Shown here: piece by piece, positions 18,301 through 62,139 of the stretch
Layout: every line of letters starts with the position of its first letter
Position numbering within the stretch: position 1 is the stretch's first letter
Assembly: GCA_030068145.1 (NCBI GenBank)
Contig: JAPJBO010000062.1
Span: 310,001-374,000 of the forward strand
Source of the DNA: Diplonema papillatum
Taxonomy: Eukaryota; Euglenozoa; Diplonemea; Diplonemida; Diplonemidae
Direction of reading: 5' to 3'
DNA: 64,000 nucleotides
The notes under the pieces: model-generated
The model's input: the letters and a program-made list of their open reading frames with translations, nothing else
The model's database searches: none
Told to the model about the DNA's origin: nothing
Translations under genes and position numbers: made by a program

Positions 18301-19098
18301 CACGACGGGATAACGCCTGCCCCGCCTTTTCTCTCCGGTTGCTCTGGCTTCAACTGTGGTGCAAGGACCCGGCGTCCCGAGGCCCTCCCCGCCCCTGTCC
18401 CGTTGGGCAGAGTCCTGTTTGGTTGGGTTGTGTGTTTTTGCCGACAAACCGGCCGACTCCTCACCGATGTTCAGTCTTTCGATTTTGTTCCTGTTCAATA
18501 CTTCTTCTACTTCTTCTTTTTCTTTCTTCTTGTTTGCGTCTAACAAATGCAATTTGTCAAGAACAAAAACAGAGAGAGAGAGAGAGACGAGTTAGAGTGC
18601 AGGGACCATCTCTCCGGGGAGTATCCGATCGCCCCACTTCTGTCCCGTACTACTACGGCGGGCGTATGTCGTTACGTCGTGGGCGCGTTGCGACAGATAG
18701 ATGGCAGCGTACTATCCTCACTCCCGTTAGATGAACAAAACAGGTTTGAAGGAAGTGCGCAAACAAAGGAAGCGCCAGATCCGTTTGTTGAATGTTGTCG
18801 TCCTACCGACTACAGGCTGATGTGCAGCCTTTCGATTTGTGTCACCGTCGATCCCGAGGGATTTTTTCCTGGTATCCTTCCCTCGTGCGGCGATAGTTCT
18901 GCTATCCAACCTTTTTCGCTTCCTCCGATTCTCCGCTGGCTTTTTGACCATGCTCTCCGCCGTCTCGATCGTCCGAGAGATCACTCAGAGAGTCAGTCGA
19001 CCGCACAAAAGCAAAAGGGACCCTGTTCACGGTTTCTTTTTCAGCCAAGCCCGCGCAGCCACGAGGCTGCCGGCAGATTGCACTGCCAGTAGATGGTG
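18301..19098. other. spacer upstream of RPB3
   Basis: Open minus-strand sequence continues 84 codons upstream of the RPB3 ATG but shows no domain, so it is treated as leader or spacer. A repeat I copy sits at 18532-18768. Nothing else is seen. Confidence 0.45.
18532..18768 (+). repeat. intron-associated repeat I, copy with internal insertion
   Basis: Starts 'cttgtttgcgtctaacaaat', then 'gcaatttgtcaagaacaaaa'. After about 115 bp of extra sequence beginning with a (ga)n tract, it resumes 'atggcagcgtactatcctca' and ends 'aagtgcgcaaacaaagg'. The uninterrupted form is at 55182-55298. Here it is antisense to RPB3. Confidence 0.8.
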
Positions 19099-34400: not shown

Positions 34401-37400
34401 GAGACCCGCGGAGCGTGAATCGCGCGGCCCACTGCGAAGTCGCCTGCCGCCATGAGAACGGGTGGTACGTCCTTTCCAGCGGCGAGTCCGCGTCCTCAGC
34501 CGTCACGAGGCGAAACCCGCCGCTCGTCGCGATCCCGTCGTCGGCCCAAGGCCGGCGGAGGACGGTGAACACGTCGCCGAAATGGTACTCGTCCGACAGC
34601 CAACACCCCGCCCCGCAGTGTTCGCCTACTTCGACCAGCAGCGGCAGCCCCTCCGCGTTCGTGCCCGCCGCCGCGGCCCCCCCTTCGACCGACACTTGCG
34701 TGGTGGTCCCTACTACCCGCGCCGTGAACCGCACGGTCACAGCGGCGACGGTCCCGGCAGCCGCATCTGACCACTCGAACACCAACCGGCACCCGCCCAC
34801 CACCCTCGTGCACCCCGCGTTGCTCCGGACGGCGAACGAGACGCCGAGAGCCCCTCCGCCGCCCGTTCCGAAGAGCGCGGCCTCCACCCCGTTTCGCGGG
34901 GCGTCCGCCGGCAACAGGTCGAGGCGCGCCGAAAACGCCACGCCGCCGGGCAGCGGCCAAGGCAGCGGGACCCCCCGCGGGTCTGAGAGGCGGTACGACA
35001 GGTTGTACCGCTCGCCCGCATGTAGAGGCGCCTCGTCGCCGTATTCGAGTGTGACGCCGAGGGCGTCACGGCTCATTGTGTACGGGTAGAGCGGCACGGA
35101 GGGATCGTGCGGCACCAGCGACAGCGCGTCGACGTGCGCCGGTGTCGGCTCGGTGACTACCACCTCCGCCGACCCCCAGCTGGAGGAGCTCAGGGCGAGG
35201 CGAAGGCGGGCCCTGCCCTCCGCGTCCGGATGCGCGAGGGTGAACAACGGCGAAAGCGTGACCACGCCGTGCTTGTCCCAAGAGACAGCTGCGGACGACG
35301 GCCGGTTTGCGAACAGCGCTCCGTCTTCAAACGACCACTCCGCGCGAACGGATCCTTCCACAGCCGCCAACGGAAACGAGCCACGCATGGCTTGCGCTAC
35401 AACCACACACACGACACCACTCGTGCACCTCAATACAACGCACACTGCTTGATCGCCGCCACACGATGCAGACTGGCCGTGGACCAGCGACGACAGCGTG
35501 GTGCCGTTAATAGATAGCCCCGTGGGTTGGAGCCGCTGAACGGTATGGAAATAAGGAGCCGTTGTGTACACCGCTGGAGAACCTACCGTGAACCGCACGC
35601 CACAACCCTGTTCCGGACAAGCTGTGCGCGCTGACAAAACGAACGCAACTTCTCCGGCGGAGTCCACACGAGCAGCCAACCCATGAGCCGGTGATTCCCA
35701 GTCAGTGGACAACGGGCACGCAGCATCGTCATTGTGCAGCTCGAACGAAGCCTCGGATTCGGGCGGGTCGTACTGAAGGCACTCCGTGTCAAGTTCGGAT
35801 GACGAATCCACATATTCCCTGCACCTTTGCACGAACACCACATCGCCCAGGCGGGAATTGACCACCTTGACCACGTACGTCACGGCAGCGTCACTTGCGA
35901 TCACAGGTATATTGTGCCCAGCCACGGTGGAGGTGTTGATTTGCAACAGTATTTGCCGCACTTCCACGGCGCGCGTGTATGTCTCGTCGTCGACCCACAC
36001 GTCGTTGAAGGTGTCGATGAGTGGCACCTGATACATGCCGGGTTCAATGCTGCCGTTGCTGCCGTGCAACTTGAAGACGCAAATTCTGAATTCGACGTCG
36101 TCGACGCCGGCTGGGGGAAGAACAACCCGAGACAGGGTGGAGGTGACCTCTGGGATACTGGGACTCCCACGAAGCAGGTACCAGTCGGGCTCGCCCACGT
36201 TGCTTCCTAGTGGAGCAGACGTGGGGGGCAAGCAGAGGGTGCGCTTGGGGCGGACGGACAGAAGGTCGTGCGTGTACCCTTCGTGGCTGCAGTTCTTGGT
36301 CGGCGGAGCACACCAAGCCGCGGCGCGCCAGTCGAAAAGCTGGACGACGGCGTCCCTGGCGCCGGCGGGTTTCCTCACTCCGCTGTAGAGCAGCGGGGAG
36401 GCCACCGACAGCACGTAGCCAGCGGCGTCGCTCGCCAGCTGCACCCACGACGTCGACGACACGTGTTCACGGACGCAGACCAGGTAGTCACCCGGCTCCG
36501 TGGGGAGGTGCGTCGTGATATGCATTTCCAGCGACGCGAGGGCGTATTGGGCGGTAAATACAGTTGGATGCCCTGGAGAAGCGCATCCGAGCGAATTGTT
36601 CTTGGAAGCGAATCGGAAGTCCAACGACCGCGCGTTCCAGAGACTCGGGAAAGATGCAGCAGTTTGCAGCGTGAACGAGGCGACCGGCGGCGTCAACAAA
36701 GAACCCACGGACAAAGTTAGTTTCCCGGCAGCCAGCGCGGGTGACTGACTGGACAGGCGCAAGTCATCCGAGACGTGCCACGTTAGAACCGGGCTGACGT
36801 GCGTCATGAACCCCGGTAGTCCAGAAGCGTCCGTCACGGTGCCGACACCGCTGGTCGCCACCGTGTGCTCCGCAGGGGAGAGCTGCTGGATTTCGGCCCA
36901 ACGAGAGCTTCCACCAAGGAAGTGCGACCGCAGGCACACTTTATACTGGACCCGCACCCGCCCCTCGCTCGGCGGCAGCCGAGCCTGGATGCTTGCCGCT
37001 CTCACGAAACCTTGCCTCGGTCCCAATCCCGTGACGATGGCGGCGGACTCGCTGGTTTCGCAGGTCTGCGTGGTAAGCACCAGCTTCACCTCGTCGTCCG
37101 CCGTGTTCAGCGTGGCTTCCCGTGATGTAGCCGCGAAGTGTATCTGCACGGTGCCGTCGTTGTACGGGACGTTCAAGGCGGCGACCCACCATCGGATCCC
37201 TGCATCCGTGACTTCGTACGTGTACTGCTTGCTCCCTGACCGCGGCACGTACCACGACATCGCCACGGACGAGCGGAGGCAGAGGAGGTACGCCCCCGGG
37301 GCAGCCGGGGCCAGCAGCGTGAACGCCAGTCCGCCGGCCGCCGTGACCTCCGCGCGCGAGGCGTTCGCGTCGCGCGATGCCGCGCGGGCGCCCTCGGTGC

Positions 37401-40400
37401 CCGCGCCGGGGCCCAAGCAGTTGTTGTTGGCCAGCGCCGGGCGGTGCGCGACGAACTTGGCGACGAACCGGTCGAGCCCGCCTGGCGGCCAGCTCCCCGT
37501 CGTCGCGAAGCTGCCCTCGGCGCCGGCGAGGAGCGGCCGCGCGCGCAGCTCGCCCGCCTCCGACGGCCGCGCCATGCGGACCGACGGCCACGCACCGGGC
37601 GCCAACGTCTCGTTGAAGACAATCCAACTCAGCGACCACGCCTGCCGGTAGCACAGTTGGTACGTGGTGGTTCCGCCCCGCGGGAGCCGGATGACAGCCG
37701 CCGTCCCCTTTAAATCAGACGCGTACGCGTCGTACGGGACTATGTCGTCGTAGTAGTCGGGGGTGACCGCGGCGGCATCGCGGGCGAACGCCAAGTTGCC
37801 GCGCACCCACGCGTCGAACACGCACGGCGGCTGGAACAGCCCGGAGTGCGTGCGGTTGCCGCAGTACGGCGAAAGATGCGCGTCGGCGAGCGCCGGGTCC
37901 CAGCCGCGCGGGTGCACGTCGCACGCTCCGCCGGCGGGGACCAGGCGGAAGACGTCGCCGCCGTCTCGCCTCGCGCCGGCGGCCAGCCGCCCCTGCCGGT
38001 CTTCGACCAGGAACAGCGCCTCGGCGCCCCCGCGGGTCTCCTCGTGCGTGACCGTCACCGACTCCAGTGCGTCCTCGTCGACCCGCAGGAAATAGCCGTT
38101 GCCGCGCAGCGCGGCGACTATGGAGGGAAGCCCCACGGCACTGCTCCCTGCGAAGGGAACTTCGCGCCAGTTCCACGCTCTGTCCCGGTGGCAAACGCGG
38201 TACTCGCCGGGGCGCGCGAACCCGAAATAGTACGCCACGGAAAACAAGTCCGTCGAGTCGCTCGCACTACCCACGCACTGCGGCGCGTCTGCGTAGTCAG
38301 AACCGTCGTCGCACTCTGCGAGGCCGCCGTCTGTGTTCTCCAAGAACGAAGGGGGGCTCTCTTCTGCGTACCCGAGCCAGTCGCACGGTGACCCGACGGG
38401 CACCAGCCTCAAGGCCGACCCGGTTGTGTCCTCGACGACGTCGCCTTCGACGCCCTCGTCAGCGTCGGCCGCCGCGTACTCGCGGGCGAAGTTCCACGGG
38501 CGCGCGTCCATCACGCCGCCCGACTCGCCCGTGCCGTTGCCCGTCTCGACGAGCAGCGGGCCGTGCGTGTGCAGCCGCGTGTCGTTCATCGCCCACCGCA
38601 GCCGCGGCGGCGGGTACGCCGGCTCGCCGGCGCCCGTCGGCAGCTCGTAGTGCTCGGACGGGACCAATACCCCGGCCGCACCAGCCTGCTCGATTGCGTA
38701 CCCACTCCCCGCGTGGTACCGCCGGTGCTCCCACTTGCCCCGCGCCTCCCGGAAAGGCAGCACCCGCAACCCGCTATTCCCCGGGCAGGTTGCGGTCGGA
38801 GACCCGCAAGACCGGCGGTAGCACACATACCACGCGGTGCCAGCTCTCGGGATCCACAGAGAGGAAAACGCGAGGTCCACCCCTTCCCTGTCATCCGACC
38901 CATCCCCCGCCCGCCCAGCAGCCGCTGGGTCCCCGTGCAGATCGCGCGAGCCCGCTGGATACGGGACGCCCCCCTCGGCCAGCCCCCCGTGGCCGCCATC
39001 CCCCAGCTGCCCGTCGAGCCCCCGCCACCAGCAGCCCGCCCGCGGCAGCGACCCGACGGCTTCGCCGGCGGCCGACACCCCGGCTGATTCACGCAGGTGC
39101 TCGGCCGGGACGAGCCGGAAGTAGTCCCCGCCGGGTGCGTCTCCCCAGTACCCGGCCCACGAGGCGTTCGCGGGGCGCGTGTCGAGCTGCGCGTCCGCAT
39201 CGTGCACGGAAAGGGTGCCCCAGGTCTCGGGCGTGAGGTCGAACAGCGACCAATGCACGGCCTCCGCCTTCACCTCGAAGGCCGTCCCCGCGCCGGAGCT
39301 GGCAGCGCACTCCCCCGGGGCGTCCGAGACGCACGGGCGCAGCTTCCGCCAGAACGGAACCGACTGTATTGTGCGGTTCGACTCGCCAGACACGGCGGCC
39401 CGCTGCATGCGCGACGAGAAGCAAACGTCGTACATGTTCGAGGAACCCGGCAGGTACTCGGGGAGCTTGACGTACACAACCGGGGGTTCCGAGGGGGAGT
39501 ACACCCCAGGATCGGTCCACTGGTCAACCAACGGGTTGCCCAGGCGGGTCCCGAACAGCCCGACGCCCCCCGGCGTACTCCCTTCGACCAGGGTGTCTGC
39601 CGCGGCGGCGAGCCAGCCGCCGTCCGATGCCAGGTGCTGGGAACCGTAGTACGGCAGCGGGCTGCGCTGCCGCCGTTCGGATGTGCACGGGCGCCCGGCC
39701 GGCACCAGCTTGAGCGCGTCGCCCAGCCCGCAGCCCGCGAGGCTCTGCACGCTCGCCCCGCACGCCGCGGACGCGGCGTGCGTGAAGTTCCACCCAACCT
39801 CCCCGGAGACCAGCCGCACTACGGCGTACTGCCGCGCAGACGCGTCCGGCAAGTGGTACCACACCCGGCTCTCCCGTGACCGCAACACGGCCATCTCCCC
39901 CCCGCCGCTGCTGACCCGAAGCAGCTCCCACAGTCCCAGCCCCCCGACGTCCCACGCTTCGTCGGGGTCTTCCCGGAAGCAAAGGACGAACTCGACCGCG
40001 GCGTGCGGTGCAGTGACGGTGAAATACACCGCGTGCAGCCACGCGTCGGCCGCCGTGCGGTCGGCGTCGCCGACGCCCCAGTCGGTTGTGACGAACAGCG
40101 GGCCGGCCCGCTCTGCGTAGAGGAGGCAGTCGTGCTCGAAGTCGGCGCGGTGCGCGAACGCGGATAGCGAGCGGGCGCTGCTGCCGTTGCCCAGCGCGCG
40201 CTTCTCGTCGCCGCGCAGGTACGCCGAGACCCGGATGCGGACGTCCTGACCTTCGACGAAGTCCGACGGCTCCGCATGGGCGGTGTAGTTGGAAATCGCG
40301 TTGACGGTCTGCGTTGCTGTGAACGTACTCGACTCAGAAAGAGTCGAGGACAACGACGCCGTTTCCGAGGTGGTATGTGAGAAAGTGAAGGTGGCGGTTG

Positions 40401-40722
40401 CAGTCGGAACCGTGACGGAGACGGATAGCGACAGGGATGCCGTCATCGATTCGGTGGCAGTGGGTATCGTAGCAGATATGGAGTTGCTGGCAGTGAACGT
40501 CGTCGTTGCGGTCGGAAGGGTCGGGGAGAACGTGGCGGAGGCGGTCGGCAGGGTGAGACTCCAGGAGCCCGTTTCCGTGGGGAGGGACAGCGACGCCGAA
40601 AGCGACTGCGTCGCTGTCGGCGTCAACGAGGCCGACAGTGACGGAGTCATGGTCACGGTCGGCGTGGCTGGCTGTGCCCTCGTTTCCGCCACCCATAAGC
40701 TGAACAGCACAGCTTTCCACAT
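28474..40722 (-). CDS. giant (4,082-residue) intronless cell-surface protein
   Basis: A single 12.2-kb open frame. Residues 1-17 (MWKAVLFSLWVAETRAQ) form a signal peptide. About 18-160 is a Ser/Thr/Pro stalk with recurring LPTAT/LPTES motifs. From about 165 to 1500 I see some nine diverged modules sharing an 'LVPxGxxC' strand and, about 80-130 residues later, a 'Y-x-V/L-C-x-R ... W' strand (FRLVPAGGACD, YQLCYRQAWSLSW, YRVCHRDRAWNW, YLVCVREHVSSTSW). The rest is beta-rich with many Cys and N-glycosylation sites. A SEA-like segment near the C-terminus (LTVEFQVISQSNVSAVQAAV) precedes a Pro-rich linker and a short hydrophobic tail (WLGPAIVWFAALLAT) with no cytoplasmic part, suggesting a GPI-anchor signal. 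A (CTG)n-type run at about 30527-30556 encodes Ser/Asn. Adhesion or coat function is inferred. Confidence 0.85.
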   Translation of the reverse strand: MWKAVLFSLWVAETRAQPATPTVTMTPSLSASLTPTATQSLSASLSLPTETGSWSLTLPTASATFSPTLPTATTTFTASNSISATIPTATESMTASLSLSVSVTVPTATATFTFSHTTSETASLSSTLSESSTFTATQTVNAISNYTAHAEPSDFVEGQDVRIRVSAYLRGDEKRALGNGSSARSLSAFAHRADFEHDCLLYAERAGPLFVTTDWGVGDADRTAADAWLHAVYFTVTAPHAAVEFVLCFREDPDEAWDVGGLGLWELLRVSSGGGEMAVLRSRESRVWYHLPDASARQYAVVRLVSGEVGWNFTHAASAACGASVQSLAGCGLGDALKLVPAGRPCTSERRQRSPLPYYGSQHLASDGGWLAAAADTLVEGSTPGGVGLFGTRLGNPLVDQWTDPGVYSPSEPPVVYVKLPEYLPGSSNMYDVCFSSRMQRAAVSGESNRTIQSVPFWRKLRPCVSDAPGECAASSGAGTAFEVKAEAVHWSLFDLTPETWGTLSVHDADAQLDTRPANASWAGYWGDAPGGDYFRLVPAEHLRESAGVSAAGEAVGSLPRAGCWWRGLDGQLGDGGHGGLAEGGVPYPAGSRDLHGDPAAAGRAGDGSDDREGVDLAFSSLWIPRAGTAWYVCYRRSCGSPTATCPGNSGLRVLPFREARGKWEHRRYHAGSGYAIEQAGAAGVLVPSEHYELPTGAGEPAYPPPRLRWAMNDTRLHTHGPLLVETGNGTGESGGVMDARPWNFAREYAAADADEGVEGDVVEDTTGSALRLVPVGSPCDWLGYAEESPPSFLENTDGGLAECDDGSDYADAPQCVGSASDSTDLFSVAYYFGFARPGEYRVCHRDRAWNWREVPFAGSSAVGLPSIVAALRGNGYFLRVDEDALESVTVTHEETRGGAEALFLVEDRQGRLAAGARRDGGDVFRLVPAGGACDVHPRGWDPALADAHLSPYCGNRTHSGLFQPPCVFDAWVRGNLAFARDAAAVTPDYYDDIVPYDAYASDLKGTAAVIRLPRGGTTTYQLCYRQAWSLSWIVFNETLAPGAWPSVRMARPSEAGELRARPLLAGAEGSFATTGSWPPGGLDRFVAKFVAHRPALANNNCLGPGAGTEGARAASRDANASRAEVTAAGGLAFTLLAPAAPGAYLLCLRSSVAMSWYVPRSGSKQYTYEVTDAGIRWWVAALNVPYNDGTVQIHFAATSREATLNTADDEVKLVLTTQTCETSESAAIVTGLGPRQGFVRAASIQARLPPSEGRVRVQYKVCLRSHFLGGSSRWAEIQQLSPAEHTVATSGVGTVTDASGLPGFMTHVSPVLTWHVSDDLRLSSQSPALAAGKLTLSVGSLLTPPVASFTLQTAASFPSLWNARSLDFRFASKNNSLGCASPGHPTVFTAQYALASLEMHITTHLPTEPGDYLVCVREHVSSTSWVQLASDAAGYVLSVASPLLYSGVRKPAGARDAVVQLFDWRAAAWCAPPTKNCSHEGYTHDLLSVRPKRTLCLPPTSAPLGSNVGEPDWYLLRGSPSIPEVTSTLSRVVLPPAGVDDVEFRICVFKLHGSNGSIEPGMYQVPLIDTFNDVWVDDETYTRAVEVRQILLQINTSTVAGHNIPVIASDAAVTYVVKVVNSRLGDVVFVQRCREYVDSSSELDTECLQYDPPESEASFELHNDDAACPLSTDWESPAHGLAARVDSAGEVAFVLSARTACPEQGCGVRFTVGSPAVYTTAPYFHTVQRLQPTGLSINGTTLSSLVHGQSASCGGDQAVCVVLRCTSGVVCVVVAQAMRGSFPLAAVEGSVRAEWSFEDGALFANRPSSAAVSWDKHGVVTLSPLFTLAHPDAEGRARLRLALSSSSWGSAEVVVTEPTPAHVDALSLVPHDPSVPLYPYTMSRDALGVTLEYGDEAPLHAGERYNLSYRLSDPRGVPLPWPLPGGVAFSARLDLLPADAPRNGVEAALFGTGGGGALGVSFAVRSNAGCTRVVGGCRLVFEWSDAAAGTVAAVTVRFTARVVGTTTQVSVEGGAAAAGTNAEGLPLLVEVGEHCGAGCWLSDEYHFGDVFTVLRRPWADDGIATSGGFRLVTAEDADSPLERTYHPFSWRQATSQWAARFTLRGSRSCHACELSVHTTWGASPSETSGMLTFTLTDGGITLQCAFETPAGDPSNAVAQAFAVSTATAEPVLFPRWPVTFTLHWGAPSQVSSATYTASLGPKGVVSVSALLFGDAFMAQLAPSCPVVANLSELTLVVNATVRSTETVGLLTYTGTAAVQRTYTCDDAAPSSALGLSSPDMALDPGQAGRYSFQTTTNALQSSVRLHVNVAGTAQLVQGSLRVVAGEGTAERALPVRVVVASSWADRQLHPDVTYGAVALGVSEASSSAAGAVLVLSADEAVVRDALFSVCATISSPANRTVCGLASLTVAPASVAGTAAYFVLPPVTPSDPPTSLHPGGRSCRTNPSVLRLAVSAYHPVINSQGIVVKYQSYGVPLRYTLSVEGQVLEATESDASEQLDGSLVKDGEDTSDGAVEFVFTGLHPTEVPARFIVRASAPMRTGFAVAPAESSAVYQWVLGEAEVCSDWDVLDAVSHGPCAGKNEWSAGPSSADHYAEEAAGYPVGWEYAAGGYASIAFPVQAVVKNAAGTRAWGYNEGSLRVVPAEFSGCGAAANVTVLTRAEPESDLRETGGATIPFVDGIATAWVMYHAPCERCTLRFDFCYSARSAPDGCLVPTDAGRDPFTAKRVKFTKPFSIKPALGADTAHVTSQALPGARSTAVVGEPFDLELAAVKLFGPRRWASPPLEHEVLAAVVSSRYVRGGAHLKYGVGGFIAGLDPDNPGFACGSGGERGEARGVDLSRSDTSRLALRFAFTRPCGACEVWVRYRVGRAGGDWVAFRVRDWATREPATVRVAACGVRWGVVGGGWGAKWARRPFTVAALRVDVNGQPSFDGDSQRTPLSLTLPAAGSRGCGELVLQSPAGAFEPVPNANLSADTFSRTIQLKTSLPGFMFATFTCFTSCPQVTIAVGEAQTLTFPIFSRPTQVVAIPRGPTVLRKQAGAQAAATVNLDVYAADDEHNRGHLLGGPTEPSAQPAFSGAKEGGVEGRPFTLVPGRRQGQSVGFHDPLGGARGGWVTDFVGRASFPDAEAVVFWDGTAVQGARAEGVGSLAIGVGGAGGAVDVELGGAGLRPAGVVVGVGGQPAVLAASAVEAGFSIAGGGTAGFSAFVLDSDLHVCDVDATVSLQSVTCATPACNAQIPALLTASSTPTTRGASSVALTVIDFDVDPCVCTVTLTHGDTGLSVTIPVQVARPAGLTWTWLEPPVPVAAPNASFALELAVSETGSGAPLRPYLRPPVAVAVEARPPGCFACSRLELLAAPDSTISEGCDWRADDRGVLLITGVFRNAWGSSNSSSSSNSSGATTSVCVVTGVAGLEVANQSFVVRTINETEAGLAVSGTGWLSVVKQGGTAFRGTQFVAHVLRDAAVVGGRVRVAVGTPPLPWDLRATLDCGGGGRAAAPSRIAGATDAWEFAFTAAAAGVHRCAVLVWGAPYHDADPYRLDVDDDLVVVPTVETIRVERYDHEIGAFSAHVEGTRWVAGYPVLLRVRLLDGAGAPFFIPPALRAAGNATYPVTIQSHTIPCVEDQRAAFRYSCASVDGVLLGLCDAGAQPKDAGGGCVDSHWGLQTIFVDAGSPSGSSAVVSVVYRREDDVSVTGIRVTAGRALAVLNFELQSIRRVEVTCRYNGAGAGPCEFALGRPVASDREFELSVRLLDGDNATVEGDSYSEVRVRVSCNSTPGDGHLAVVGGLGGIEEQTEEWVGVPIRKGAGAVGRAVLRGACRAAVLEARCAVLTGAYPGLSDTLRSCGRAALVAPFSFGPDGNATDAPPATPAPAQVYPVITVLCSGVGFDSFDAGEFEGKMTVDLLTVVRQGYARIVSLCRLPDPVLGPVSVVDRSNTTRCKRFRAISSRSVRLARGRPLEADVLTVEFQVISQSNVSAVQAAVSSLLSASSSLVRASFPGLAAAAHFEAPIAPQPVSPAPPTLPPITFVPVPVNENFTAPRSPDGEPDDGDPYGVAPMSAAHHCEVSWLGPAIVWFAALLAT

Positions 40723-41281
40723 GATGCGGGGCCGTCCCGCACCACCGGTTCGTCGGACGTCATAAACACCCCCGTTTGGTTTTTACCGCCGTTTGCGCAG
40801 GTGCCCCGCGCATTCCTGCCGGTGTAGTCGGGTGGACAAAAGCTCTCGGAAACGGTAAACAACAGGCTTTCCCTATGGAACAACGGGCACCCGCAGGGCA
40901 AAGAGAGTTGAGTTTTGGCTAAAGATAAAGAGGTGTCACCTGAGGGTGGGTAATCTCAGGGCACCCACGTGATAAAACCGTGGAGCACTGGGAACTTTTA
41001 AGTACACGGGCCACACGGATCAGCATGCACGTTTCTCACGAGCTAGGTTACTTAATGACGTCATCATCGCCTGCCACTGCGTCATCAAGGTCGAGTACTT
41101 GCGGTGTAAACGGGGCTTGGTGATCTGGCGAGCCGGATTCAATGTCCGAGTCCAAGAGCGAGCAGGCACGCTCGTTTCCACCTTTCGAGACCACGGGTGT
41201 GTCTGAGGCCGTCGGAACGGATCAGCATGCACTCTGTTAAGCAGCGGCTGCCGGCTTCTCCCGTGACACACCTTTTATATG
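40723..41281. other. upstream region of the giant gene
   Basis: Short spacer. From 40915 it is occupied by repeat B copy 3, which directly abuts the foldback element starting at 41282. No promoter motif is recognised. Confidence 0.4.
40915..41275. repeat. dispersed repeat B, copy 3, interrupted
   Basis: 40917-41030 matches 3702-3815 ('ggctaaagataaagaggtgt', 'gtaatctcagggcacccacg', 'atcagcatgcac'). 41222-41275 matches 3806-3860 ('gttaagcagcggctgccggc'). About 190 bp between them is absent from copy 1 and begins and ends near 'atcagcatgcac', so it looks like an insertion with a 12-bp direct repeat. Confidence 0.75.
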
Positions 41282-50332: not shown

Positions 50333-53300
50333 TCAGTAGTCTTCGTGCTCCTGCCAGAAGTACTTGTTCTGCTCGATGAGTTCGGTCGCGTGCTGCATCT
50401 TCGGGAGGAACTCGCCCTGTGGGAACGTTTAATCGTGAAGTCTACGGTGAGTGCTTTGATTCGCAGGGCAAAACGTCGACACGGTCCAGGTGCAGTTCAA
50501 AACGAAACAAGCGTGACGATCGAGTAATAAACAACCCTAGGTACACCGCGTAGCAGTACTGCACAGTGCATGTACCACCCCGTTATTGGGTCCAATACTG
50601 GCATACGAGGATGGATATCCAGACGGGCGCTACGGTGCCCTCGGTAGGGCCACCTGGGACCACATGCTACGTAGTGGAGTGCACCACTGCGTGATTGGGA
50701 TGTTGATGCTGCTACACAGATGTAGAGTATATATACGTAGCCCTATGTGCACCAGCAGGGAGGTCGAAAAGGGCGTGTTGCATACCATGCATTCGAACAG
50801 AGGAACCACGATGTAGTTCATGAAGGCGGTCTGTCCTTTTGAGATGACAGTGGTGTAACGGTCCATGAACGGCGAAACTGCAAGACCCATGAGACGCTCT
50901 CGGTCGCCTTGCATGTAGAACTCGTCGACGATTTGGTGGCACCAGCCGTGGTAGAGCTTCTGAGGGCGGCCGCAGTTGCTGATGTCAGCCATCTTCACTG
51001 CCATGGTGAGGGCGAGCTTCACGTCGTCCCTTGGGTTGCCTTCCAGCTTCTTCTTAAAACGGCTGAGGATCTGCGCGTGGAGACCCATGTCGGTGCCGAG
51101 CACCAACTCAACGATCATTTCGCGGAGTTCGTTCTTCTTTGCGGGATCGAAGCCAGCCAAGATCTGTGGTCGTAGGGCGTGTTTCAAGATTTATATTGTT
51201 TGTGCGCACTTCCTTCGAACCTGTTTTGTTCATCCAACGGGAGTGAAGATAGTACGCTGCCATCGATCTGTTTGTGTTCTTGGCAAATTCTTCTTGCATT
51301 TGTTAGACACAGAAGTCGTTGGACTTTTCTCCTGCAATGTGCTACAACAATTGTGAACACAAGACGAGGGCTTACGCTACCAATACATCAAAATTCACAT
51401 GTACCTGTGGATCCACACGTGGGGGAACAAAATCCAAACAGAATTAATGTGTGGAAATCCACACGTTCCACAAACGGAACAAATGACATACGTTGAAACG
51501 GTCCAACCGCATGAGCTCGAAAACGCTGCTGGCGTGGATGTTTTCGTTGACCGACCGGTCATTCCACAGGATGGCGAGGTAGTTTTGCGTCTTCACGTGG
51601 AACGCGTTGTTGATGCCGGGGTGGTTGTAATCGTGGACGCACGCCGCGAACAGCGTGCAGAACACATTCTCGTCGCTTGCTTTGCACTGTGAGTATGATT
51701 CGAGTTGGATTTTTCACACGCTACAGCAATTGTCATTTTCCTCAAACACGCGGCTTAATCAGGTAGGTCCCCAGGGCTGGCAGGTGCCCAGATCTCAACC
51801 CCGGGGATCTTCAGCAGCCCCGCGGACCGAGGCTCTCCGAGACTGGGAACGGGAGCCAGCCACTGGCTGCTTGCAAGTTTTTAGAGTGCAAGTTCACGTA
51901 CAGATCCGGGGGGTTATAGTCTCCGGGTGTCGAAAATGGTGCCTTTGAGGTACAGTGGTGTGCGTATCGTATCTGCGGTAGTAGCAGTGCCTTGTGCGTG
52001 TGTATTTGTTTTTAGAGTTAAAATTCGCTTGAAATTCCGGGGGTTTAGGGTCCGTGTGACCGTTCGTGAAAGGGTTCTCCCAGAGCAAGAAAGGCTATAT
52101 GGTTACGGGTTGTATATTAGGTGCACGCTTTCGTATGGGTTATAGCCGTATCCGGGACTGTTTGTGACAGACACCATGGGTTATGGCTAGCCATATCCGG
52201 GGCTGTTTGTGACCGACACCATGGGTTATGGCTAGCCATATCCGGGGCTGTTTGTGATCGACACCAAGTACATTTTCCTTCGTGGAGTGTAGTCTTGGGC
52301 CCCCCACGTTCTTGTTTTTCTTCGTAGAAACCCTTTGGGCAACCCAGACTGGTCGCGGCAGATCCGAAGAACCAGCGAGCCTAGATTGCGCTGATGAAAG
52401 CCATTGGTCGGTACTACCCGCTTGCTTTATAGAATGCAAAGTCGCTTTTGTCAGGGTTAAAGTTTTTCGTCGCTTCCCCACTCCCCACTCCTTCGACGAT
52501 TTGACCGTGAGCGCCTTTTAGAAAACGTTTCGTTGACCGCACTACCCTGAGCCCAAATCCTGGACGTGGTTTCAGGGTGGCAAATTTGCAAATGATGGTC
52601 ATGATCAGAAGGCCCTTCTTGGGCGGTTCAGTTTCCTCACACACTGCATGTGGCTAGTAGTAGTAGTAGTAGTTGTCGTCTCATCCCCGCAGATGCGGGA
52701 GTAAAACGGAGCAGTGTTTGCATTCAAACGATTCAAGTGCGGTGGCAGCAGAAATTGTCAAGCCGTGACAGCATTCGGATAAGGTGTACCTTTCGCAAAG
52801 GTGGCATCTCAGTGTGGGGTACAGCGGATTATGGGCTGTCAGCGGAAAATGACAATTGATGCAGTGTTCTGCGCAGGCTTTGACATGGCACCGCGGCGCA
52901 CATTGCATGTGGCTAAAAAGAAAAAGGGTAAGGTGCCTTAGGGGACTAGTCCCAATGTGAAATGTGCCCTTAGGGGACTAGTCCCACTTGGAAATTGTTA
53001 CCTTGACTTTTGTCAGGGAAATGCTCTTAGCAGATTTTGAGCAAATTTTGGAAATTTTCATTTTTTCCAGATTTTTGCAGATTTTGGCCATTTTTGCCCA
53101 TCTTTGCCGATTTTTCCAGATTTTGGCCAATTTTTGCCGATTTTTCCACATTTTGGCCATTTTCGGCCATTTTTGCCGATTTTGGCCGATTTTTCCAGAT
53201 TTTGCCAAATTCTGGAAAAATCGGTAAAAATGGCCGAAAATGGCCAAAAAAATCTGCCAAAATGTGGAAAAATCGGCCAAAATGGCCAAAATCTGCCAAA

Positions 53301-56300
53301 ATCGGCCAAAATCCGAAAATTCCGAAAAATCTGAAAATTTCCGAAAATTTGCTAAAAATTTGCGAAGTACACTTCCCTGGCAAAAAGTCCAATGAAATTG
53401 TTTGCCCTTAGGGGACTAGTCCCGTAAGGGCACATTTTCATTGGGAAGTACTGGGAAATGCACTTAGCAACTTTTTTGCAAATTCTTACCAGGAATTGTA
53501 ATGCAAAATAGGGACTAGTCCCCTAAGGGCACATTTCACATTGGGACTAGTCCCCTAAGGCACTTTTCCCAAAAAAAAAAAGGGGCGAGCGGGAGGTCAG
53601 GCAACCCCCAGTCACAGGAACAAAGCGCGCAAAAGAGCCAGGGAGCAAGTCAGCCCTTGACAGGGGTAGCTCGGAGCGCAGCATCACCATCAGCGAATCA
53701 GATCAGCGGTAGCAAAAACAAACAAACAAACCCAGGAGCAGGAGCGGAGCAGGGAGAGATGGTTGACCTCACTCTCCCTGATGCTGTCGTGACTCGGCCT
53801 GACAAGCCCCCCTCCGGGGGAGTCACGGGGGATGGCCTCCTCAGCAGCAGTCTCTAAGGGCCCCCGGTTGTTTTAGTGGGTAGCGTTCGGCCACCATAGC
53901 TCCACGAACGTAGTCCCACACTCTCCGCTTAGTCCACGGGGGTCGTGCGTAAAGCATTTTTTCCGGTTTACAAAAAAAAAAAAAAAAAAGTCCCAATACC
54001 TTTTCGATGAGCTCTCCGCGTTTCAAGATGTAGTGACTCACGTGAAGCACGTCTGCGGCGTGCATGCTGTTGTGGTACGGGTTCGGGTGATAGCCGGCCT
54101 CTACCATCGACAACCAGTTGATTACCGTCTTCTCGCACATGTTGAATTTCCGCATGAAGCCGTACTGTGGGGTTGGTTGCGAAAGTATGAGACGTTTTCA
54201 CGGATGGGTTTTGTGTGGGGAAAATCTTAGTTTCGTGTTCAGGCGCTACTTGCCTCTAAGTGTTTGATGCTAGCATCAAGTCTTCTTCGCGGAATGCAGA
54301 GTCTTTTTTTCTTCTTTTTTTCTTTTTTTCCGTTTTCTGTTTTTTCTGTTCTTTCTTTCGTTGTCGACAATTTCTTTTTTCTCCTTTTACTTCCAATTTT
54401 GACTTTAATTTTCTTTACCATGGTATTTTTGGACTTTCTGGTGCCGTAGAGTAGTTCTTCTTTCTCTATGCCGCCCACGTCGATGTTCGTTTAGCAGCGG
54501 CTGCCGAATCGAAGTGTGGGGAAGGGGGGTCTGTCTAGCCTTCACAACACATGGCATCCAGCGCGATGCATCCAGCGCGATTGTTCGTGCTGGAGATACG
54601 CAAGGGCCGCCCTGTGCTTTTTTGCGACGGAGGCTAAACAAACGGGGGAACAAGACAACTACAGCAGCACGCTGCCAACTACTCACGTCGGGTCGTCTTT
54701 TTGTTGAGCGCTTACCGCCACCAAACCCAGATTTCCCTGTGTTTCGTGTGGGCTACAACAGAATTACCTGCTTTGAGTCGGATACTGTTGCGGTCGTGGG
54801 GAGTCATCGGCATGCTGATGAGTACCACGCTATTTTTCCTCCTTTGAGATCTCGCAACGGGCAGCCTCCTCAAGTATTTTCTACAAAGCAGGGGTTTTGT
54901 ATGTGCGTGGCAACCCGCAAGTTTCAAACGTAGACTATTGGTAGATGTACTTAATACTCTCCTCCTCGCGTCTCGCTGCTCTTGCTGCTGCGTAGAAAGG
55001 TCATGCAGAGATTCTCGTGTGTATGCCACGAACTTCTCTGTAAAATTGCGGTGTTTTTCTCGGGAGCGACGGGGTAAAAACCTATGTACAAGTGTTAGTT
55101 CTCGGCAATAGTCGGAATAGTATTAGTCTTCTAAGATCTTCGATCGTATACGACAAAAAACGGATCTGGCGCTCCCTTTGTTTGTGCGCACTTCCTTCAA
55201 ACCTGTTTTGTTCATCTAACGGGAGTGAGGATAGTACGCTGCCATCGATCTGTTTTTGTTCTTGACAAATTGCATTTGTTAGACACAAACAAACGAAGCG
55301 CACCTTGTAGAACAGTGCGTAGCACGTGATGAATAGGGATCCTCCGTTTGGCTGATTCGCGAGACCCTCGTGCGTGTAGGACCCGGACATGCACTTTTGG
55401 AGCGCGAAGACGTCGAAGTCCCACTCGTCAATGTTGTTGATGAGCGTCCAGATCTGCTGCCGCTTGTCGTCGCGGAGGGTCTCGGTCACTTGGGCGAACT
55501 CGGACGTGGTGTAGGGCCGGATCGCATTCGCGAAGAGGTGCGTGTCGGGGTCGTATTGCTCGCCTTCCACCCACGGGTCCCACTTCGACTTCACGATTTT
55601 GAACATCTCCTGGTCGATGTCCCGGCAGTCGGGCACCCGCGTCACCCCCACGGGCAGCGGCGCCGCCAGCGGGTTGCGCACGCAGGCGACGATGTCCTCG
55701 CCGGCGACCGACCCGCCGACTTCCCCGAGATCCGACTCCAACCGCACTACCTCCTGCCTCAACTTTCCCTCGCGCTCCTTGCAGAATTCGATGCAGTACC
55801 GGCAGACCCGCAGCTCGTCTTCAAGCTGAACGAGCGTCGGCTTGAGCTTCTGCGCGTGCTTCTGCGCCTCCTCGACCTCGGCGTCGACGTCTTTTTCCTT
55901 GCTGTACCCGCGCAGCCGGATGAACGACTGCGACGCTTTGAGCAGGAACGTGACGTGCGCGGCGGACCCTTTCTCCAAGGTCAGCTTCTTCCCGCCGAGG
56001 TCCAGCGCCAGGCGCCCGTCGTCGGTCGGCGCCAGGTTCGGCGCGGCCGCCATGTCTTCGGCGATGCCGTCGATGATGTCAGACGGGCTGCCGCCGAGAG
56101 CAGTCAGCTGCTCTTCGTCGTACCCGGAGAAATACACTTCCGCTTCGGTAGCCCCGCACAGGTAGATAGAGCTCGTGTCAGGGCTCGCCAACGCGATGAG
56201 CAACGCAGACCCGTCGGCCGTCTCCCCGACCAGCTTCGGGAGCTCGGCGAGAGTCTTCTGCAACGTGGACCGAGTGTGTCCCTGCTGCGAACTGGTCATG

Positions 56301-58180
56301 TCGTTCTGGCTCACCCAGTACCGCCGGTTTTCCTCCGCGCACGCGGCGACAGCCGCGAACTCGGGCAGAATCTGCTGCATCGTCTCCAGGAGGGGAGCCA
56401 CGGCTGTCTCGATGATCTGGACCTGCCCCTTCGGGAAGTCGATCGTGTGCCGGGTGCGGTCGGCCGTCCAGCACGAGTCCATGAACGCCGAGCAGGTGAA
56501 CCCCCGGGACACCTCCACGTCGCCCTGCACGTAAAACTCTTCGACCAGCTTCTCCAACCGCGTCGTGTGGATCTCCTTGTCCTTGGCCCAGATGCTGACG
56601 TCGGCGATCCTCAGCGCCATGGTCAGCGCGAGCCTCACATCGTCCTTCTTCGCCCAGTCGCTCGCGTTGATGCCCTGGCTGAGCTTCTCCTTGAAGTCGA
56701 CCAGTTTTTCGGCCATCGTCTGCATCTTCGCGTTCGCTTTCATGTACAGGATCTCGACGAGGGTGTCTCGCACGTCCTTCTTCAGCTCCGCCTCCAGCGG
56801 AGCCAGCAGGTTCAGGTGCTCGTTCTCAAGCAGCTCGAACGTCGCTGTCAACCTGTTCTGCTCCAAAACGAACAAATCGCTGTAAAAAGTCGACAAGAAT
56901 TCCTTGCCTTTGACCAAGCAGCTGTTGTCGAGCCCGCGGTGGTCGAGGTCGATGATGCCGGCCGCGATGAGCACAGCGAGGAGGTCTTCGGGGGAGAGGG
57001 TCACCTTGCCGTCCTCCTTCCCGGGGAACTTCCCGAAGCCGAGCGTCGAAATGATGCAGTGCGTGGTGATCATCACCTCGATCGCCCGGCTCGAGTTGTG
57101 GAACGCGTTTTCCCTGTACTGCTTCTCGACGGCGCACCAGAAGTTCTTGAATTGCCGGGGGTTCAAGCTGAAGTGATCGACCAGGTTGTAGTGCTGGAAG
57201 AGCGTCCACGCCACGTGGACCAACTTCGTCCCGTAGAGGGGTTTCGCGTCGTAGTTCCACCTGTCCCAGCCGTCCATCGGCAGCATCTCGGGGTCGACGG
57301 CGTCGGTCGGTTCCGGGGCCGCGTACAGCTTGTCGAGAGAGGTCAGGCCGCCTTCCTGGATTTGCGACAGCTGGCGGGTCATCTGCGTGATTTTGCTCTC
57401 CATCTTCTCGACGCGGCCGCGGGCAGCGCGCGCCTCGCGCTCAAACGGGGCGAGCGTCGCCTGCAGCGAGCGGAGCGAAATGTCGAAGGTCAGCGCGGCG
57501 GCCTCGGCGGCGGTGAACGAGGCTTCCTTCTTCAGGAGCTTCGCCTTGACTTCCGGCTCGAGGTCGACGAGCTTAGCGGTCTTCGCTTGGTGGCACTTCA
57601 CGAACGGCTGCGCGAAGTAGCGGAACGTGTGCGACCAGTCCGAGCCCTGCTTTTGGAGTTCAACGGCGAGCGTGGTTGACGCAGAGCTCTTCGACCGGAG
57701 GGAGATTTCGACTTTCGAGCCGTCCTTCGAGACCTTGACGTCTCCGGTTTTCCCCATCGAGGAGGCGAGGGCTCTCCAGAACGCAGCGGGCGTCAGCTTC
57801 TCGATCTTCTTCGACTTCTGCTGCTGCGCGATCATTGCGTCGGTCCACTGGACCGCGTGGACGACGCCGTTTTCATCGCGGGTTGCGATCGTCAGCCCCG
57901 TCAGCGGCGCCGCGAGGTCGCCGAACATCGAGAACAGAAACAGCCGGCCGCCTTCCGCCTTGACCTCCTTCTGCAGCGGGTACCGAAAGTGCTTCTCCCG
58001 CCCCGACGCCGCGTCTGCCGCCACATCCGAGCCGTCCTGCCGATTGTCGGCGAGCGCGCCGTCCTCCTTCTTGTTCCCAACGCCGGCGGCCGCGTCAGCC
58101 TCCAAGCCCTCGTCTCTTCCTGACTTCTTCGGGGACGCCTTGTCAGTCTGCGGCTTCTGCGTGCTGCCCCCACATCCCAT
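50333..58180 (-). CDS. class I cyclic-nucleotide phosphodiesterase, tandem catalytic domains
   Basis: Five exons: 55304-58180, 54000-54164, 51492-51686, 50786-51163 and 50333-50416; all junctions are phase 0 with GT/AG, 1,232 residues. The start MGCGGS carries an N-myristoylation glycine and a palmitoylatable Cys, implying membrane attachment. Order: beta-rich domain (about 65-195), coiled coil (205-275), catalytic-like domain 1 (about 300-620), a second beta-rich domain (about 640-760), coiled coil (760-820), catalytic domain 2 (about 850-1232). Domain 2 is intact: HNSMHA (990-995), HDYNHPGINN (1032-1041), ADIS (1138-1141) and the nucleotide-clamp Gln1190. Domain 1 has HNSSRA (361-366) and IIDLDH (409-414), losing two metal-binding His, so it is probably inactive and regulatory. 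It would hydrolyse cAMP and/or cGMP; specificity is not readable. Confidence 0.92.
50417..50785 (-). other. phosphodiesterase intron 4
   Basis: Donor gtatgcaac, acceptor gttcccacag. No repeat recognised beyond short dyads. Confidence 0.8.
51195..51310 (-). repeat. intron-associated repeat I, intron 3 copy
   Basis: Minus strand begins 'tgtgtctaacaaatgcaaga' and continues 'cagatcgatggcagcgtact' to 'gaaggaagtgcgcacaaaca'. About 90% identical by eye to 55182-55298. Confidence 0.85.
51385..51475. repeat. dispersed repeat C, copy 2
   Basis: Same sequence and orientation as 3440-3530, including 'aaatccacacgttccaca'. Confidence 0.75.
51884..51928 (-). repeat. intron-associated repeat II, diverged copy
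   Basis: Plus strand 'ttagagtgcaagttcacgta', then 'ccggggggttatagtctccg'. About 125 bp from the closer match at 52009. Confidence 0.6.
52009..52110 (-). repeat. intron-associated repeat II, closest match to the Alba copy
   Basis: Plus strand 'ttagagttaaaattcgcttg', then 'ccgggggtttagggtccgtg' and 'gttctcccagagcaagaaag'. Collinear with 6318-6410 over its whole length and in sense orientation in its host intron. Confidence 0.85.
52138..52266. repeat. 43-bp tandem repeat, three copies
   Basis: Unit contains 'ggttatggctagccatatcc' and 'ctgtttgtgaccgacaccat'. The first copy is the most diverged. Confidence 0.9.
52933..53563. mobile_element. foldback element with perfect 53-bp terminal inverted repeats
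   Basis: 52933-52985 and 53511-53563 are exact reverse complements. Each contains two copies of the palindrome 'ggggactagtccc'. Inside, 53040-53215 and 53216-53370 form a second, imperfect inverted repeat of 'gccaaaatggcc'-type sequence, so the whole 631 bp can fold into one hairpin. No open frame of interest and no clear target duplication. All six apparent frames are Phe/Pro/Lys repeats. Confidence 0.9.
54165..55303 (-). other. phosphodiesterase intron 1
   Basis: Donor gtgcgcttc, acceptor accccacag. Repeat I (55182-55298) begins about 5 nt inside the donor. A long T/C-rich tract lies at 54300-54420. Confidence 0.85.
55182..55298 (-). repeat. intron-associated repeat I, intron 1 copy
   Basis: 117 bp. 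Minus strand starts 'tttgtttgtgtctaacaaat' and ends 'aagtgcgcacaaacaaa'. The ends are inverted repeats of TTTGTTTGTG, as in a small MITE. Other copies: 51195-51310 and 18532-18768, with a partial one near 2694. Confidence 0.88.
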
Positions 58181-60010: not shown

Positions 60011-61459
60011 TTAAAGCTTCGCCTGGCTCTCGATGGCCTGCAGCGGCGGCAGCCTGCTGAGGAAGTCGCGCAAAGCGACGCGCTGGGTCGCGATGAAGAG
60101 GTACTGCTTGAGCTGGAACGCGGTGAAGCGCGACGCCTTGTTCTTGACGGTGACGAAGGCGCCGTTGCTGTCGAGCGTCGTCGACCCGAGGACCTTCCGG
60201 TCGAGCTGCGTCAGCGGGGCGCCGGCCGCCAGCCGCGCCTGCGCGGGCAGGCCGTGCCACCAGGCGATGAGGTGCCGGCTGCTGGTGTCGAGCCACGTGA
60301 CGGGGAGGGTCTTCCCGTCGTATTTTTTGGTCGAGTATATCTTGTCGATGAGGCTGTCGTACGCGGCGCGCAGGTGCGGCTCCGACGGCTTGACGTCCTC
60401 GAGCGACTTCCGCGTCGAGTGGTACTCGAAAAACTGCATTAGGTGCGACGGCCAGCGGTCGACGATCTCGCACTCCGGCTCGGAATAGTTCCCCTCGGTA
60501 TCTTCGAAGAGGGGGCGCACGTTGTGGATGCTGTGCTCCTGCTGGGTCCTGTCGAAGAGCTCACGGATTACGGGCTCCAACCGGGCGATGTAGTCGTACA
60601 GTTCGGGGACGGACCGCTCGAGGATTTTCTTCCCCATGAACTCGGAGACGTTCGGGAACGAGAAGGAGGGGAGCATCTGCGCGATTTTGCGCTGCACGTT
60701 TTCTTCTATCTCCGCGGACGCGACCGGGGTGTACTCCTTCGGCGGGAGCTGCACGACGAGGCCGACCTGCGGCTTGAGCGAGTTGATTGTGTTGGGGGGG
60801 CGGAGGTACACAATCACGTCGGCGTCGTCGAAGCGGAAAGGGTGCATCACTTTTTCGACGAACCCCTTGCACCCGGGCGTCTCGAACGCGACACCGAACG
60901 TCTGCTCCGCGACGGCTCGGCAGGTCGCGAGGACCCCGCCGAGGGAGTGTCCCGTGTAGCTCACTGTGAAGTGGTCGTCTGAGCCGAACCGAAGGCTCAG
61001 CTTCAGCCGCACGATTTTCGAAAACTGCTCGGCCAGCGCGAACTGGATCGTCGGCTCGTCGAAGTATACCCAGATTCCGGCCCGGAGACCCGCCGCGTCT
61101 ATCGTGCCGCGCTCTGCGATGACGACGTGCTTCATCTCCGTGTGGATGTACGCGGTCCCCCAGTAGCCCTCTCGGTTCAAGTTGACTTCCGAGCAGTCGA
61201 GGAGGATCCGCCAGCCTTTCGGCACCGGGGTCCCGTCCCCGTACACGTGCTCGCTCATCGCGGCGTAGTCGTAGTGCGGGACGATGGGCAGCTTCCCCAC
61301 CTCTTCTTCGGTCAGCTCCTCGGGCTCGGGCTGCGCCGCCAGAGTGGGCGCGGCAGCTTGCCGGAGCCACCACGGCAGGAACATGCTCCAGCCGCGACGC
61401 CCCCCACCACTCCCCTTCTCCTGTTGAGCATTTGAGTTACTGCTGAGTGCATGACACAT
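60011..61459 (-). CDS. class 3 (fungal-type) lipase / alpha-beta hydrolase
   Basis: 482 residues, single exon. The nucleophile motif GHSLGG is at 170-175 (Ser172), within HFTVSYTGHSLGGVLATCRA. Upstream, HVVIAERGT (about 111-119) is the strand carrying the oxyanion region. Downstream, DADVIVYLRPPNTINSLKPQVG (about 212-233) matches a conserved block of protist class 3 lipases and probably carries the acid residue. A histidine candidate lies in the SHLMQFFEYH region. The C-terminal 150 residues are an extension I do not recognise. No clear signal peptide, though MFLPWWLRQA could be an internal start. The 5' part is duplicated upstream at 61734-62042, which supports a start at MCHALSS. Substrate unknown; acylglycerol or phospholipid is inferred. 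Confidence 0.82.
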   Translation of the reverse strand: MCHALSSNSNAQQEKGSGGGRRGWSMFLPWWLRQAAAPTLAAQPEPEELTEEEVGKLPIVPHYDYAAMSEHVYGDGTPVPKGWRILLDCSEVNLNREGYWGTAYIHTEMKHVVIAERGTIDAAGLRAGIWVYFDEPTIQFALAEQFSKIVRLKLSLRFGSDDHFTVSYTGHSLGGVLATCRAVAEQTFGVAFETPGCKGFVEKVMHPFRFDDADVIVYLRPPNTINSLKPQVGLVVQLPPKEYTPVASAEIEENVQRKIAQMLPSFSFPNVSEFMGKKILERSVPELYDYIARLEPVIRELFDRTQQEHSIHNVRPLFEDTEGNYSEPECEIVDRWPSHLMQFFEYHSTRKSLEDVKPSEPHLRAAYDSLIDKIYSTKKYDGKTLPVTWLDTSSRHLIAWWHGLPAQARLAAGAPLTQLDRKVLGSTTLDSNGAFVTVKNKASRFTAFQLKQYLFIATQRVALRDFLSRLPPLQAIESQAKL

Positions 61460-61636
61460 GGACTAGCATGCACTTTCTGTCCGTAGGTCAGCTAACGGTA
61501 TGACGTCGTCACTTGCCATTGCGTCGTCAAAATCGAGTACACCCTGTTGAGTGTTGAGTTCTGCAAAGTGCAAGTGGAGTATTGTTGCGATAGGAGGGAG
61601 TCATCGGCATGATGTGTACCACACTATCTACCCGTC

Positions 61637-61769
61637 TCCTCCTGCGCCTCAACTTTTTCACAGGAGCGGGATTTTGTAGAGTGAAAGTTCGCTTGAAACT
61701 CTTTTGTCTGCCGACGACGTTCCACACCGGATTTCACGAGAGATCTTCAGAGCCATGGTCAAGTCTGTA
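61637..61769. repeat. 130-bp direct repeat, copy 1
   Basis: 'ctcctgcgcctcaacttttt' to 'catggtcaagtctgta'. Nearly identical to 62140-62269 and includes a repeat II core ('tagagtgaaagttcgcttga' at 61678). Followed directly by lipase-derived sequence, whereas copy 2 is not. Confidence 0.92.
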
Positions 61770-62042
61770 GCCCTCTCGGTTCAAGCAGTCGAGGAGGATC
61801 CGCCAGCCTTTGGGCACCGGGGTCCCGTCCCCGTACACGTGCTCGCTCATCGCGGCGTAGTCGTAGTGCGGGACGATGGGCGGCTTCCCCACCTCTTCTT
61901 CGGTCAGCTCCTCGGGCTCGGGCTGCGCCGCCGAAGTGGGCGCGGCAGCTTGCCGGAACCACCGCGGCAGGAACATGCTCCAGCCGCGACCCCCCACCAC
62001 TCCCCCTTGAGCATTTGAGTTACTGTTGAGTGCATGACACAT
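61734..62042 (-). pseudogene. truncated 5' duplicate of the lipase gene
   Basis: Encodes MCHALNSNSNAQ, then the first ~90 lipase residues with several substitutions. It carries an in-frame loss of four codons (LLDCSEVNLNREGY becomes LLDCLNREGY) and stops soon after, where homology ends at about 61767. It cannot make the GHSLGG core. Same orientation as the intact gene, about 300 bp upstream of it. Confidence 0.88.
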
Positions 62043-62139
62043 GGACTAGGTCTTCTTTCCCCGCTGACAGTTTCAAGTCCGTTCCCTTGACTGCTGTTTC
62101 GCCAGATAGTAGGTAACAGAAGGAATCTCATTGGTCTTC

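Follow-up and report, generated by a model that had tools for sequence, protein, structure and literature searches.

Within a 64,000-nucleotide stretch of the Diplonema papillatum genome (contig JAPJBO010000062.1, positions 310,001 to 374,000 of the forward strand; hereafter the window), we found a gene whose single chain carries two class I phosphodiesterase (PDE) domains, the first lacking two metal-ligand histidines and the second retaining its whole catalytic signature. We consider it probable that the product is a membrane-tethered class I PDE that arose by an ancient fusion of two units, each composed of a head, a coiled coil, and a PDE domain, with the dead first domain (PDE1) acting as partner of the live second domain (PDE2).

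As claimed in a preliminary description of this DNA, the gene comprises five in-phase exons on the minus strand, with clean splice sites and a product starting MGCGGS (Table 1). Each exon length is divisible by 3 in the spliced translation, all four introns run from GT to AG, and CACAG ends all four acceptors. Exon 1 encodes the MGCGGS start, then the whole first unit (head 1, coiled coil 1, and PDE1), and then head 2 and coiled coil 2 of the second unit together with the leading helices of PDE2. Because this uninterrupted exon of 959 codons reaches into the first helices of PDE2, the two halves are inseparable by splicing; they belong to one gene, with no recourse to splicing needed to join them, which agrees with the earlier assignment. 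We found no point in support of the opposing idea that two adjacent genes had been wrongly joined, and the sharing of one open exon by head 1, PDE1, head 2, coiled coil 2, and the PDE2 leading helices makes that idea scarcely credible; two separate genes are ruled out for the window's gene by exon 1. Chance or an annotation error is unlikely because the architecture recurs in two paralogs, C520 and C392 (loci are named for their contigs, the window's gene being C62).

Table 1. Features of the two-unit PDE gene, as positions in the window.
Feature	Position	Strand	Basis and remarks
Whole gene	50333..58180	-	Five phase-0 exons, 1232 aa; spliced translation, GT..CACAG introns
Exon 1	55304..58180	-	2877 nt; single open frame, 959 codons spanning both halves
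Exon 2	54164-54000	-	165 nt
Exon 3	51686-51492	-	195 nt
Exon 4	51163-50786	-	378 nt
Exon 5	50416-50333	-	84 nt
MGCGGS N terminus, myristoylation/palmitoylation-type signal	58163..58180	-	Sequence; MGC start common to 6/6 head-1-type genes seen
Head 1, about aa 65-195	57596..57988	-	Beta-rich, central helix; relatives in C220, C520, C392, C344, C50
Coiled coil 1, aa 210-275	57356..57553	-	Limits by eye; heptad contrast 0.71 vs shuffled mean 0.19
PDE1, PDEase_I domain	56351..57103	-	133.2 bits, E 1.6e-38; metal ligands H164, H200 lost (R, I)
Head 2, about aa 640-765	55886..56263	-	Relatives in C520, C392, C15
Coiled coil 2, about aa 763-838	55667..55894	-	Heptad contrast 0.57 vs shuffled mean 0.16
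PDE2 leading helices	from about aa 946	-	Inside exon 1; by alignment to PDE1
PDE2, intact catalytic PDEase_I domain, aa 989-1216	50384..54077	-	Exons 2-5; 244.6 bits, E 1.5e-72; four metal ligands and clamp Gln

We also observed other features in and around this gene. Intron 2 contains a fold-back element (positions 52926-53570 of the window), possibly a non-autonomous transposon, whose 60-base arms are 97% complementary and flank an AT-rich stretch with nested inverted and tandem repeats. On the minus strand, positions 60011-61462 and 61734-62045 hold an open frame that contains a TGHSLGG motif, looks lipase-like by eye, and had no Pfam match at E 0.01, and, upstream of this frame, a short stretch that partially duplicates its N-terminal end. 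The window additionally holds an RNA polymerase Rpb3-type gene (17074-18591; PF01000, PF01193), an unbroken frame of 4102 codons that is Ser/Thr-rich near its start and had no Pfam match at E 0.01 (28474-40782), and a minisatellite whose repeats of about MREWDPLNAGVGPPQCGSG leave two overlapping frames open (13468-14560).

Both PDE domains scored far above the 24.8-bit cut-off of the Pfam PDEase_I model (PF00233), and their mutual alignment spans 311 columns with 30% identity (E 6e-41). At the metal-ligand columns, which we take to be H164, H200, D201, and D318 in PDE4 numbering, PDE1 reads R, I, D, D and PDE2 reads H, H, D, D. In PDE1 we observed FHNSSRA and IIDLDH where YHNxxHA and HDxxH are expected; the corresponding motifs of PDE2 are YHNSMHA and HDYNHPG. 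The columns of the clamp Gln and the general-acid His160, named by PDE4 numbering, are conserved in both domains. PDE2 therefore unites the domain score, the four ligands, the general-acid His, and the clamp Gln of a class I PDE, whereas PDE1 has the PDEase_I family score without the four ligands of an active enzyme (H164R, H200I) and is also altered at N321, H234, and D272. These domain scores and ligand columns support the dead-plus-live architecture proposed earlier and bear out the loss of two metal-ligand histidines from PDE1. The accompanying statement that PDE2 keeps all motifs and the clamp Gln also stood, with the correction that the clamp column is likewise Gln in PDE1.

To place these domains in the 271-Mb assembly (2910 contigs), we searched for PF00233 matches. 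At least 42 exon-level stretches, spread over 18 contigs, were obtained and grouped into 23 domain copies and one fragment. Three tandem loci (C62, C520, and C392) carry two PDE domains and two heads in the same domain order; the halves of C520 and C392 sit in separate open frames, and we treat these loci as single genes by analogy with the window's gene. H200 is replaced in PDE1 of all three (by I, L, and Y), and PDE1 of C520 alone retains H164, which C62 and C392 have lost. PDE1 of C392 has additionally lost D201 and D318, so that all four ligands are gone. Among the other PDE copies, all four ligand positions could be read in 18 of 20, each of which retains the full set, and the incomplete copies C96b and C1089 retain those that can be read. 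Among the copies read, ligand loss is limited to the first domain of the tandem loci. The idea that PDE1 still works as an enzyme with altered metal ligands could appeal to D201, H204, and D318, which remain in the window's PDE1, but both of its His ligands are now Arg and Ile, and no ligand at all survives in C392. In mammalian PDEs, changes at metal-ligand residues abolish activity. We regard residual catalysis by PDE1 as very improbable. The survey also revealed two adjacent PDE genes that closely resemble each other and have long N-terminal regions (L021, L022; C585). In C522, the single-unit gene is followed by a second, partial PDE fragment (L033:4179-4583), and the PF00233 stretch matching this fragment contains an internal stop.

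The dead domains have diverged much further than their live partners, with pairwise identities among C62, C520, and C392 of 33, 34, and 42% for PDE1 and 69, 70, and 77% for PDE2, and with terminal branches about four to seven times as long for PDE1 as for PDE2. PDE1 frames are open across nearly the whole domain in the tandem loci, and all three share an N209-to-D change. In PDE1 pairs (236 to 241 aligned codons), differences were least at codon position 2 (0.33-0.42 vs 0.72-0.74 for random codon pairing) and amounted to 0.48-0.60 at position 3 (vs 0.59-0.68), figures that are plain per-position differences rather than dN/dS. The codon pairs had been aligned on the similarity of their amino acids, and this itself reduces differences at positions 1 and 2. 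For the pair C62-C392, position 3 (0.48) was no more different than position 1 (0.50). With the caveats of the alignment and of this pair, the pattern points to purifying selection on PDE1. The dead half has outlasted at least two duplications of the gene, which suggests a function for it, and the occurrence in two paralogs of a PDE1 with the same His200 loss and an open frame fits a regulatory or structural role. PDE1 might instead lack any role and be carried along in the fusion while it decays, as its fast evolution and the paralog-specific ligand losses (H164 kept in C520, D201 and D318 additionally lost in C392) would allow, and the long terminal branches could likewise reflect slow decay. 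We consider a passenger quite unlikely, since the frames have stayed open at 33-42% identity, position 2 differs less than by chance (subject to the alignment caveat), and the H200 loss and the N209-to-D change are common to all three PDE1 domains.

Phylogenetic analyses addressed how the two units came to share a chain. In a site-heterogeneous tree of 19 of the 24 rows (C522x, C96b, C1089, C292, and C8 were left out), PDE2 grouped with the single-unit genes C15 and C522 with support of 98/98, and PDE1 grouped with the single-unit genes C220, C344, and C50 with support of 82/86, which is not firm. Under a simpler model covering 23 of the 24 rows, PDE1 fell outside the whole head-bearing family with weak support (89.2/59). 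Forcing PDE1 and PDE2 into one clade was 25.4 log-likelihood units worse (p-AU 0.0013), while a constraint that kept all active domains together was not rejected (p-AU 0.149); long PDE1 branches may mislead both trees and the AU test. Internal duplication of one half was rejected by this test, and the twofold repeat noted earlier thus fails as a case of one half having been copied. We observed an identical branching order in the PDE1 trio and the PDE2 trio, C62 lying outside C520 and C392, with support of 99.1/100 and 99.8/100 under the simpler model and of 100/97 and 100/99 under the site-heterogeneous model. Because both domains branch in the same order, the PDE1-PDE2 pair appears to predate the duplications.

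Identities and head types were compared with this history. PDE1 of C62 is 36-39% identical to the domains of C220, C344, and C50 vs 32% to its own PDE2, and PDE1 of C392 shows no preference (27-30% vs 29%). Head types match the fusion reading, in that head 1 is of the C220/C344/C50 type and head 2 of the C15 type; the C522 head gave a weak partial match to head 2 (E 0.18). The evidence favours an origin of the tandem gene by fusion of two diverged enzyme units, and the simplest history would be that these units came together before the combined gene underwent two or more duplications. Exon 1 had no near match in a plasmid collection, and among viral contigs one stretch matched a pattern and none encoded a relative. 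A search for the dinoflagellate spliced leader gave 0 exact matches.

The head-1 and head-2 types also differ in their starts. We observed an M-G-C start in all six head-1-type genes seen: MGCGGS (C62), MGCGAG (C520, C50), MGCAAS (C392), MGCGAT (C220), and MGCGVS (C344). None was seen in the frames examined of the head-2-type single genes C15 and C522, where an upstream exon is possible. The usual fate of M-G-C starts is myristoylation and palmitoylation, and the window's protein begins as dually acylated proteins do. The recurrence of this signal supports the putative lipid anchor proposed earlier, and the protein is probably membrane anchored.

The two beta-rich domains, which the preliminary description could assign to no family, gave nothing significant in our profile and sequence searches either: the best E values for the heads were 0.017 in a Pfam search with eight head sequences and 0.14 in a PDB sequence search. 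Five single-head searches of the genome returned matches at E < 1e-4 exclusively on contigs with a nearby PDE gene (C62, C520, C392, C220, C344, C50, and C15), the head of C50 being separated by about 12 kb from the first of its listed PDE exons. Weak head matches away from PDE genes (C274, C291, C1978, C21, C44, and C82; E 0.04 to 3) were set aside as chance matches. Chou-Fasman averages for head 1 indicated strands followed by one clear helix, then a stretch of mixed strand/helix character, further strands, and finally a long helix. Both coiled coils of the window's gene passed a heptad test (p 0.000 in 1000 shuffles each), coil 2 having been tested on aa 763-845, which contain 10 Pro/Gly residues; coil 1 of C520 failed it (p 0.173). 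At the sequence level, the claimed twofold repeat is clear for the PDE domains and not for the beta-rich domains, head 1 and head 2 giving no alignment by BLASTP or single-sequence hhalign. Their family profiles were weakly alike (hhalign P 3e-4, probability 39.9%), a likeness that our own profile test did not bear out: 12 of 150 unrelated segments reached the score of the window's head 2 against the head-1 profile and 95 of 150 that of its head 1 against the head-2 profile.

PMC7267773 describes the fold and the PISA motif of the XRCC4/SAS-6/CCDC61 superfamily. For the window's heads this superfamily suggested itself because a beta-rich head is followed by a coiled coil and because an ungapped SAS-6 match falls on the helix-turn-helix/PISA stretch. 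The succession of head and coil is borne out in the window's gene by the heptad test, which both coils passed. In contrast to the members of that superfamily, the window's heads are fused to PDE domains and lack a match to the Pfam SAS-6_N or XRCC4 models, neither of which was matched by any of the eight head sequences at E up to 10, and hhalign of the heads against SAS-6 gave nothing significant. We built profiles A1 and A4 for head 1 and A2 for head 2 and compared them by profile Smith-Waterman with the genome's own XRCC4 candidate, with SAS-6, and with SAS-6-like. The scores were reached by 11, 100, and 20 of 150 unrelated segments, respectively, for A1, by 131, 25, and 131 of 150 for A2, and by 38, 217, and 65 of 400 for A4. 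In an ungapped test of the SAS-6 PISA stretch, chosen post hoc, the scores with A4 and A1 were reached by none of 1000 column shuffles and none of 83 PDE decoy windows. The match fell at the same column in five of six heads, the window's own head 1 being the exception, and for head 2 the score was reached by 98 of 1000 column shuffles; both the stretch and its SAS-6-like row had been picked after an alignment was seen.

Scans of the whole SAS-6 profile were free of this choice. The PISA register won weakly at a width of 39 columns (28 of 300 shuffles for A4, 10 of 300 for A1) and in A4 only at 30 columns (79 of 300), and at 25 columns the best place lay elsewhere. A2 never landed on this register, and the scan with the genome's own XRCC4 had its best match at another place (6/300, 13/300). 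In these unbiased scans, the similarity of the head sequences to SAS-6 is not significant, and the case for the superfamily is reduced because the PISA match occurs in both head-1 profiles at one of the three scan widths only and is absent in head 2. Sequence methods are blunt for XRCC4-type heads, because the genome's own candidate XRCC4 gene (L060:1306-2481; C87) scores 20.6-22.2 bits vs a Pfam cut-off of 26.2 and matched no XRCC4 chain in a PDB sequence search. An XRCC4/SAS-6-like fold of the heads, which would be a barrel of seven strands with a helix-turn-helix between strands 4 and 5, is a guess for which our tests are suggestive at best, and we rate the chance that they share the superfamily fold as somewhat short of even. 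If they do, a scaffold fold of DNA repair and centrioles would be linked to second-messenger breakdown.

In the fusion model that we prefer, acylation of Gly2 and Cys3 would hold the protein at the membrane, and the heads and coiled coils would pair or oligomerise the units, either between the two units of one chain or unit by unit between two chains. PDE1, unable to hold the Zn/Mg pair, would serve as a permanent, non-catalytic partner in positioning or regulating PDE2, and PDE2 would hydrolyse cAMP and/or cGMP. We infer regulation of PDE2 by the dead half from these sequence features. PDE1 could alternatively be a cyclic-nucleotide sensor that binds cAMP or cGMP uncleaved and switches PDE2 on or off. 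GAF domains act as cyclic-nucleotide switches in the PDE families 2, 5, 6, 10, and 11. At columns whose names (I336, F340, N321, and F372) we take from PDE4, PDE1 of C62 and C392 has Leu at I336 and Phe at F340 and keeps the clamp Gln column, and the general-acid His160 is kept in all three PDE1 domains. However, the phosphate-holding metal site is lost, N321 is replaced in all three (by I, C, and A), none has Phe at F372 (I, W, and I), and PDE1 of C520 has Asp at the clamp column, in a stretch at an exon edge, and we consider a sensor unlikely. A more elaborate proposal, in which an obligate fused heterodimer PDE uses SAS-6/XRCC4-like heads and coiled coils to build ordered arrays at the membrane and the dead half senses the level of a cyclic nucleotide or a partner protein to gate the live half, seems unlikely to us.

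Class I PDEs carry an N-terminal regulatory part followed by a C-terminal catalytic domain, one of each per chain, according to PMC10865986. The window's protein resembles them (PF00233) in the whole catalytic signature of PDE2 and in the placement of a catalytic domain C-terminal to an N-terminal part, and differs in adding a ligand-less PDE domain, an acyl-type N terminus, and two beta-rich heads for which neither GAF nor any other Pfam model gave a significant match. In the titles and abstract openings of open-licence literature, we found among the matches listed no class I PDE with two catalytic domains and no head of this kind. Within the same genome, the single-unit genes C220, C344, C50, C15, and C522 have the same order of head, coiled coil, and PDE domain (the C522 head being weakly matched) but consist of one unit with an active domain, those of head-1 type with an MGC start and those of head-2 type with none seen. 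With the two halves joined in a single chain and single-unit genes still present alongside to serve as controls, the dead-live fusion kept in three paralogs offers a natural system for studying the control exerted within a PDE dimer by one half on its partner. Membrane adenylyl cyclases are fused pseudo-heterodimers of C1 and C2 with an active site shared by both halves. Like them, the window's protein has two diverged copies of one catalytic fold per chain, one site being degenerate; unlike them, it is a different enzyme in which PDE2 owns a complete site. If the unlikely array proposal above were correct, its obligate fused heterodimer would represent a new class of PDE, the degradative counterpart of the C1-C2 adenylyl cyclases.
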